A program made the translations under genes and the position numbers. DNA of 64,000 bases, from the NCBI RefSeq assembly GCF_001904745.1, contig NZ_MRCD01000025.1, positions 1 to 64,000 on the forward strand, written 5' to 3'. Shown here in pieces: positions 41,935-42,920 of the stretch (its first letter is position 1; each line of letters opens with the position of its first letter). Below the pieces are notes generated by a model that saw only the letters and a list, made by a program, of their open reading frames with translations, made no database searches and had not been told where the DNA came from. This stretch comes from Calothrix sp. HK-06 (lineage in GTDB: Bacteria; Cyanobacteriota; Cyanobacteriia; Cyanobacteriales; Nostocaceae).

Positions 41935-42038
41935 TCCCACAAGAAGATTTTACAAAACAGCTTAATTATTGGCAGCAGTATTAAAATCTTTCTAATTTAT
42001 TTGCATGTTCGCAGATTATATGTATAATTGCTTATATA

Positions 42039-42169
42039 TGAAGGGGAGTAGCTGCTGACAGCTTTAAAACAAAAATTAAAAGTTAGTCAGTACATTTGAA
42101 TCAACATACTGGTGATAAACCTGGTTCAGATGGCATACACCAAATAAGATTTTGCGAGCGAGACCTTCA
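42039..42169 (+). promoter_or_regulatory. Mn2+-sensing yybP-ykoY riboswitch aptamer
   Basis: The conserved 5' consensus AAGGGGAGTAGC (42041-42052) and the 3' consensus GCGAGCGAGACCTTC (42154-42168) of the yybP-ykoY family are both present. P1 forms from TGAAGG (42039-42044) with CCTTCA (42164-42169). GCTG-CTGA-CAGC (42051-42062) gives the adjacent P2-type hairpin. The element lies directly upstream of a UPF0016 metal transporter gene. This family is known to bind Mn2+ and usually switches genes on. Confidence 0.88.
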
Positions 42170-42218
42170 CTAAGTTCACACAGCCTAAATGTGTGTGGAG
42201 CTTGGTGAGGTCTTTGTT
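42161..42218 (+). terminator. Riboswitch-controlled transcription terminator
   Basis: A long imperfect stem forms from about AGACCTTCACTAAGTTCACA (42161 on) with GTGTGGAGCTTGGTGAGGTCT (about 42194-42213), closed by a loop around CCTAAAT and followed by TTTGTT. The left arm begins inside the 3' strand of aptamer P1 (CCTTCA), so formation of P1 and of this terminator are mutually exclusive. Confidence 0.75.
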
Positions 42219-42224
42219 ACATTC

Positions 42225-42264
42225 ATCAAGCTCCATACCGCAACATAACTAAAAGGAGCTTGAT
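42225..42264 (+). promoter_or_regulatory. Shine-Dalgarno-sequestering hairpin of the riboswitch leader
   Basis: ATCAAGCTCC (42225-42234) is a perfect 10-base complement of GGAGCTTGAT (42255-42264), which contains the Shine-Dalgarno core AAGGAG (42253-42258) of the GTG-start gene at 42268. The same GGAGCTTG octamer occurs in the terminator right arm (42197-42204) and could compete for ATCAAGCTCC. Confidence 0.7.
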
Positions 42265-42267
42265 TAA

Positions 42268-42885
42268 GTGCTAACAGCTTTTACTGCGGGATTATCTATA
42301 ATTACAGTTTCGGAACTAGGTGATAAAACTTTCTTTATTGCAATGTACTTAGCGATGCAACACTCGCGACGACTAGTATTTAGCGCAGTTACGGTAGCGT
42401 TAGCAGCAATGACAATACTTTCTGTAGCATTAGGACAGGTTGCTTCGCTTTTACCAGCTAGTTTTGTCTATCATGCGAAAATAGGATTATTTTTGGGCTT
42501 TGGGTTGAAGCTAATATACGATGCCTCTAAAATGCCAATGGTAGCAAACTGCGACCAGGTACTCTCCGAAGCAAAAGAAGCAGTCGTCAAAGCAGAAGAA
42601 CAACTGGGTAAGAAAAATGCTTTGGGGATTTGGTTTGAAGGATTTTTGTTAACTTTTATTGCTGAGTGGGGAGATAGAACCCAACTTGCGACTATCTCAC
42701 TCGCAATTGATAATAACCCCTTTGGTTTAACATCGGGCGCCGTTTTAGGGCACGCTATTTGTGCAGCAATAGCTGTTACCTGCGGCAAAATGCTATGTGG
42801 ACGCATCAGTGAGCGGCAGCTTACTTTTATTGGTGGGTTCTTATTTATAGTGTTTGGAATCATTGCAGTATTCGAGAAGAGTTAG
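42268..42885 (+). CDS. UPF0016/TMEM165/GDT1-family cation transporter (Mn exporter-like)
   Basis: This 205-residue membrane protein has six helices in two halves, each with the family E-x-G-D-(K/R)-T motif: ELGDKT at 16-21 and EWGDRT at 133-138. A charged loop (about 88-118) joins the halves. Cyanobacterial relatives (Mnx, Hmx) move Mn2+ across thylakoid or plasma membranes. The start is GTG at 42268, fixed by AAGGAG 9 bases upstream. The Mn2+ riboswitch in its leader agrees with a role in Mn homeostasis and suggests the gene is induced when Mn2+ is high, fitting efflux or compartment loading. Confidence 0.93.
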   Translation: MLTAFTAGLSIITVSELGDKTFFIAMYLAMQHSRRLVFSAVTVALAAMTILSVALGQVASLLPASFVYHAKIGLFLGFGLKLIYDASKMPMVANCDQVLSEAKEAVVKAEEQLGKKNALGIWFEGFLLTFIAEWGDRTQLATISLAIDNNPFGLTSGAVLGHAICAAIAVTCGKMLCGRISERQLTFIGGFLFIVFGIIAVFEKS

Positions 42886-42888
42886 CGA

Positions 42889-42920
42889 AGAAACCTGGTT
42901 TCAAAAGAAACCAGGTTTCT
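42889..42920. terminator. Perfect 14-bp hairpin after the UPF0016 gene
   Basis: AGAAACCTGGTTTC-AAAA-GAAACCAGGTTTCT begins 4 bases after the stop codon. Related GAAACC(C/G)GGTTTC palindromes occur at 54251 and 54304, so it may be a dispersed repeat used as a terminator. Confidence 0.65.

Follow-up and report, generated by a model that had tools for sequence, protein, structure and literature searches.

The yybP-ykoY riboswitch class acts by transcription or by translation, and its well-studied member from Lactococcus lactis (RF00080) shares with the leader considered here the aptamer loops, a P1 3′ strand common to a competing hairpin and, as is predicted for the leader, an ON response to Mn2+ (PMC11087558). 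The association of the class with genes for UPF0016 proteins is likewise already known, in that yybP-ykoY control of the UPF0016 gene is reported for 328 of the 333 strains screened that have one, a figure for which two references are cited, one being Dambach 2015 (PMC7380456). The same report places an Anabaena UPF0016 member under ManS/ManR, which counts against an Mn2+ riboswitch reading.

Photosystem II makes oxygenic phototrophs heavy users of Mn, an excess of which nevertheless poisons them. A 2019 review describes ManS/ManR alone as reliably identified in cyanobacterial transcriptional Mn control, the word riboswitch being absent from its main text (PMC7020235), and a 2024 study names MntR and the yybP-ykoY riboswitch for heterotrophs while describing little as known for cyanobacteria (PMC11649195). 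A translational Mn2+ riboswitch before an exporter gene, if true, would fit both statements.

The window, i.e. the whole stretch of 64,000 nucleotides of Calothrix sp. HK-06 DNA that was analysed, is part of contig 162 of a 9.99-Mb genome and includes a GDT1/UPF0016 gene on its + strand. The best Rfam match of the leader of this gene is RF00080 (42042-42233, 26.2 bits), with an E value of 2.4e-5 for the 521 nt searched and of 1.1e-4 genome-wide; the score is below the 45-bit gathering cut-off of the family, i.e. short of the bar for curated annotation, and a scan of the whole window at the Rfam gathering threshold listed nothing. The best reading of the sequence is that the leader is a divergent member of the known yybP-ykoY family, for which Mn2+ binding is predicted, and that its expression platform combines a conserved translational relay with an optional weak terminator in some lineages. 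The features on which the comparison rests are as follows.

42000-42028, + strand: sigma-70-like promoter, TTTGCA-17-TATAAT (consensus scan, 10/12)
42039-42169, + strand: predicted yybP-ykoY aptamer (RF00080, sub-gathering), conserved loops GGGGAGUAGC at 42043-42052 and AUCAACAUACU at 42100-42110
42039-42044, + strand: P1 5′ strand TGAAGG, pairing with 42164-42169
42164-42169, + strand: P1 3′ strand CCTTCA, common to P1 and the H1 left arm (switch strand), read directly
42160-42182, + strand: H1 left arm (MFE structure; H1 co-evolution)
42194-42214, + strand: H1 right arm (MFE structures; co-evolves with both partners), 42196-42211 of which is also the H2 left arm (anti-anti-SD)
42211-42224, + strand: weak U-rich tail TCTTTGTTACATTC, a possible terminator or pause tract, overlapping the H1 end and the H2 loop; 6 T of 8
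42219-42235, + strand: H2 right arm, its core 42223-42234 being the anti-SD (H2 probability with P1 held; co-evolution)
42225-42234, + strand: anti-SD ATCAAGCTCC, H3 left arm (H3 probability 0.98 with the H1 left arm free)
42255-42264, + strand: Shine-Dalgarno (SD) region GGAGCTTGAT, H3 right arm, read directly; GGAG at 42255-42258 covered by H3
42268-42885, + strand: GDT1/UPF0016 cation antiporter gene, Mnx-like, GTG start at 42268 (Pfam PF01169, E 3.3e-41)

Direct reading of the sequence gives GGGGAGTAGC at 42043-42052 and ATCAACATACT at 42100-42110, and both conserved loops are aligned in the significant covariance-model match to RF00080. Two further features by which yybP-ykoY membership is judged are present, i.e. 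a P1 switch helix that shares a strand with the expression platform and a position before an Mn2+ homeostasis gene (GDT1/UPF0016). The 5′ motif and the P1 duplex were detected in 182 of 183 distinct leaders from relatives (defined below); P1 takes the compensatory form GAAAGG/GACTTTCA in five leaders from three groups, and a one-sided change leading to a G-U pair is present in five more. Thus the proposal of the initial annotation that the leader is a yybP-ykoY riboswitch is supported, the covariance-model check that it called for having given a match below the 45-bit cut-off and the module described here being present in relatives. The same genome has a second GDT1 gene, which is likewise preceded by a sub-threshold RF00080 match (contig 173, 20.1 bits); this paralogous leader (L035, contig 173, 15424-15566) precedes a protein 59% identical to that of the window and has the same relay segments.

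A transcript from the 42000-42028 promoter would begin just 5′ of P1. The consensus scan gave six promoter sites in the region versus 2.9 expected, and a TATAAT-like hexamer is found within 40 nt 5′ of P1 in 165/182 leaders versus 57/183 shuffled ones. The leader as a whole folds much more stably than its dinucleotide shuffles (z -6.4). At the other end of the gene, a 14-pair inverted repeat at 42889-42920 (AGAAACCTGGTTTC) is terminator-like, with no strong T run, and a similar repeat past the GDT1 3′ end occurs in two relatives (L006 and L008); in one other relative (L207, 27-108) a tRNA gene lies upstream of the GDT1 leader.

Between the aptamer and the gene, P1 and three further helices, H1 (42160-42182/42194-42214), H2 (42196-42211/42219-42235) and H3 (42225-42234/42255-42264), form a chain in which each neighbouring pair of helices has a strand in common and is mutually exclusive. 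H1 is a stable stem (-29.7 kcal/mol, z -5.7 versus dinucleotide shuffles), the right arm of which carries GGAGCTTG at 42197-42204. Direct reading of 42039-42268 confirmed the mutually complementary segments that the initial annotation had located. When the H1 left arm is left free in window RNA ending at 42290, the computed probability of H3 is 0.98 and that of the SD GGAG being unpaired 0.001; when 42160-42169 are held as by P1, H2 forms with a probability of 0.87-0.92 and H3 with one of 0.08-0.13. In RNA of this length, holding the strand that P1 shares with the left arm of H1 thus flips the downstream fold. With P1 held, the SD is nevertheless unpaired with a probability of only ~0.2, because it is bound by the start of the gene or, in shorter RNAs, by the left arm released from H1. 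Residues 42171-42177 of that arm can pair with 42256-42262 when P1 is held and the transcript ends at 42264-42270, and a possible consequence in the folding model is a leak in the ON state.

The module, defined as the P1 3′ strand plus its H1 partner, is widespread in cyanobacteria. The family sample consisted of DNA upstream of 130 same-family GDT1 genes (protein hits below E 1e-60, G027 and G136 being left out), a GDT1 protein match being present in 141/145 genomes of the family, including one congeneric genome in which the protein is 97% identical to that of the window. The class-level sample consisted of 80 leaders hand-picked across families from the matches of a search that was positive, at E up to 1e-40, for 156/242 genomes. 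The module was detected in 188/210 leaders (123/130 family, 65/80 class), giving, after five duplicates were merged, 183 distinct leaders; it was not detected in 22/210 (7 family, 15 class), some of them without a visible aptamer, and one of them (L049) having a module by eye that falls below the energy bar. In six family GDT1 genes (L099, L112, L113, L124, L133 and L135) neither aptamer nor module was detected, pointing either to loss or to other control.

The downstream helices accompany the module. No more than 5 of 100 shuffled linkers of the same base composition equalled the H2 pairing in 185/188 leaders, and the same was true of the H3 pairing in 167/188 (118/123 family, 49/65 class); at least five anti-SD positions are common to H2 and H3 in 123/123 family and 59/65 class module leaders. 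When named genomes were scanned for the H1 left arm, written as a 20-nt pattern, at least 116 stretches were found, of which 80 are listed as loci, and among these listed matches 78/80 lie before GDT1 on the same strand; in the other two the contig ends 111 and 135 nt past the motif start, too early for a protein match. The records listed include Synechocystis salina, Nostoc, Anabaena, Fischerella and Leptolyngbya; as the pattern itself selects for the module, the scan reveals where the module is located and not how frequent it is. In four leaders (L155, L169, L211 and L275, the last from S. salina) the SD helix seems by eye to cover the AUG in GCATGA, so that the start codon itself may be masked in these.

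The covariation of 42197-42204, 42225-42234 and 42255-42264 in relatives, for which the initial annotation had asked for a test, is borne out by two tests in which the control pairings give no such signal. In a swap test (183 distinct modules, 71 clusters at 80% identity, 5000 permutations), native arms pair more stably than permuted ones for H1 (-22.4 versus -19.8 kcal/mol, z -11.5), H2 (-23.7 versus -19.2 kcal/mol, z -13.1) and H3 (-17.3 versus -13.4 kcal/mol, z -12.0), with 0/5000 permutations reaching the native value in each case, while three control pairings that should not form gave z scores of -0.6, +2.4 (the native pairing being the weaker) and -0.3. Disjoint nearest-pair contrasts, used to limit the effect of shared ancestry, gave native better/worse/tie counts of 38/12/30 for H1 (p 1.5e-4), 36/10/34 for H2 (p 7.8e-5) and 31/15/36 for H3 (p 0.013, the weakest of the three); the corresponding controls (better/worse 28/30, 23/19 and 25/32) were not significant. 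Individual leaders illustrate the pattern, e.g. L167, in which all four segments have changed to match one another (TAAATCTGC, GCGGATTTGG, CGTCAAATTCG and GGAATTTGA), and L007, with GGAACTTGG accompanied by ATCAAGTTCC. A column-based analysis (RNAalifold on a MAFFT alignment) recovered eight H1 pairs only and no pair of H2 or H3, a result attributed to insertions that shift the register. The SD is thus part of a helix that is conserved, co-varies and cannot coexist with the ON helix, as is characteristic of SD-masking riboswitches.

Taken as a whole, the proposal is that the leader is an Mn2+-responsive riboswitch which turns ON a GDT1/Mnx-type Mn exporter by a three-step strand relay, to which a probability of roughly 0.7 is given. 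Without Mn2+, the P1 3′ strand would go into H1, which would occupy the right arm, leaving the anti-SD free to pair with the SD in H3 and translation OFF. With Mn2+, the 3′ strand would stay in P1 and H1 would lose its base, so that the freed toehold of the right arm could capture the anti-SD in H2 before the SD is made, leaving the SD open and translation ON. The parts of this model that concern Mn2+ binding, kinetic trapping and ribosome access are those that we infer.

The initial annotation had envisaged a two-tier switch with H1 as a long terminator. The translational tier is conserved and the stem of H1 is indeed stable; by contrast, the transcription tier is only possible, and at most in some lineages, the tail TCTTTGTTACATTC not being a strong U-tract. 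A true two-tier device, with H1 functioning as an intrinsic terminator in this species and read-through RNA gated by the SD relay, is rather unlikely, although several observations speak for it. A tail with at least 6 T of 8 is present in 7/7 orthologous leaders of the genus (TCTTTGTT tail), the terminator score of which is 6 to 17, and T is enriched behind H1 at +5/+6 across relatives (0.60 and 0.56 versus a background of 0.27). The first tail bases can pair with GAGA in 118/183 leaders, so that part of the T enrichment may be forced, but the +5/+6 enrichment lies beyond that part. Against a conserved terminator, no T run in the window tail exceeds three, at least 6 T of 8 are found in only 35/183 leaders overall (the majority state in 4/41 clusters, with 2.6% for random leader positions), the score exceeds zero in 86/183 distinct leaders, and the paralogous leader L035, with 4 T of 8, reaches a score of 0.5. 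H1 was also not listed by the consensus scan of the region, probably owing to the loop and bulge limits of the scan. The mnx transcript is reported to be unchanged under Mn excess in wild-type Synechocystis PCC 6803 (PMC11649195), which fits translational control, the Synechocystis leader read here being that of S. salina. On sequence grounds, H1 may thus support weak termination or pausing in the genus of the window without being a conserved part of the design.

Three other candidates concerning this region were rejected: that the tail is never U-rich, given the T enrichment behind H1; a Rho-dependent second tier, no rho exceeding the cut-off in the genome (a single match of 19.6 bits versus 509); and a conserved upstream ORF from a GTG in the H1 right arm, which stops before the gene in 130/183 leaders and is of scattered length.

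Improbable, to a greater degree, is a post-transcriptional switch in which the finished mRNA refolds at equilibrium and no decision is taken during transcription. The shift of window RNA to H2 when it ends at 42290 and P1 is held is as such a switch would have it. The outcome for the window depends on the 3′ end chosen, which weighs against the relay reading itself: at 42287 the result with P1 held is a mixture of ~5 H2 and ~10 H3 pairs, and at 42280 the MFE structure is the OFF fold. At full length, 40/183 leaders lose H3 and gain H2 when P1 is held, which exceeds the 4/355 of shuffled controls, yet 143/183 do not switch, and SD accessibility rises by at least 0.1 in only 18/183 (24/355 controls). 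When the RNA is ended before the SD, by contrast, H2 is near-universal, with at least eight pairs in 181/183 leaders when P1 is held versus 34/183 when it is not; for shuffled linkers the values are 13/183 and 0/183, and a gain of at least five H2 pairs is seen in 157/183 native leaders versus 54/183 shuffled-linker controls. The ON logic read into the alternative folds by the initial annotation is therefore sustained for RNA in which the SD has yet to be made, and not in general for the full-length leader. Within the folding model, the full-length behaviour speaks clearly against an equilibrium switch; as the P1-held state does not prevail in most relatives once the leader is complete, the decision would need to precede SD transcription. 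It can be inferred that the relay makes sense as a decision during transcription, after which H2 would be too stable for quick undoing.

Drift of the aptamer to a different ligand, or to none, which would leave the leader as a structured constitutive brake on translation, is quite improbable. The case for it is that 0/116 cyanobacterial genomes have an RF00080 match over the Rfam cut-off, 47/116 having a match at E up to 0.1 in a search with stricter filters that lose weak matches, and that 0/20 relatives scanned at the gathering threshold passed. However, the leader of E. coli mntP, reported to sense Mn, also falls below the 45-bit cut-off (41.6 bits), which argues that the RF00080 bar does not define the biology, and the low scores look more like a trait of the clade than like false hits. 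The core loops are also kept among the listed pattern loci (GGGGAGYAG in 78/80, TCAACAYRCT in 80/80), and the Synechocystis homologue Mnx transports Mn2+ (PMC7020235). A purely transcriptional switch of the H1 terminator against P1, with the anti-SD/SD pairing incidental to the repeated GGAGCTTG, has a precedent in L. lactis, where P1.1 competes with an intrinsic terminator (PMC11087558), but is least probable of all, as co-evolution is seen for H2 and H3 and not for control pairings, and as leaders that lack a U-rich tail, e.g. L016 and L115, have both helices.

The riboswitch family is thus known, and what is new is the form of the expression platform, on the present sequence analysis a conserved and co-evolving translational relay with a weak, lineage-dependent terminator-like feature; a search of the literature confined to open-licence papers, and hence weak, found neither an account of the relay nor a cyanobacterial Mn riboswitch that had been studied. 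Expression platforms are said to be hard to analyse by covariation in work that models whole riboswitches of other classes in this way, manganese being absent from its main text (PMC13273304). A more far-reaching proposal, to be regarded as tentative and with the odds slightly against it, is that the platform is old and common to cyanobacteria, carrying the ligand decision by three strand displacements over ~100 nt to the ribosome site, being fixed kinetically before SD transcription without transcription termination, and giving the Mn exporter a transcript-silent response to Mn2+, overlooked in annotation owing to aptamer scores below the Rfam cut-off. The sub-cut-off aptamers point to a gap in the Rfam-based annotation of cyanobacteria, and the relay offers a natural example of multi-step strand displacement with co-varying helices.

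Comparison with systems of known logic helps to place the relay. In the L. lactis yybP-ykoY riboswitch the competing hairpin is an intrinsic terminator, whereas here H1 would feed an anti-SD/SD relay, and the U-tract behind it is short and differs among relatives. The E. coli mntP riboswitch acts by translational control, and MntP and GDT1 are different protein families; its leader resembles the present one in its RF00080 match (41.6 bits) and in preceding an Mn exporter gene, but the chained order was not seen in it in a single duplex check, which is a weak test. The TPP riboswitches of the thiM type are translational, with an anti-SD that masks the SD and is itself captured in the ON state; the anti-anti-SD/anti-SD pairing is the same here, with an extra hairpin, H1, interposed between the aptamer strand and the anti-anti-SD. 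The attenuators of the trp and erm leaders have alternating segments (1:2, 2:3, 3:4) that form a chain of mutually exclusive hairpins, as is the case here. The difference is that in those leaders a translating ribosome controls the first pairing, whereas in the relay described here this role would fall to a metal aptamer.
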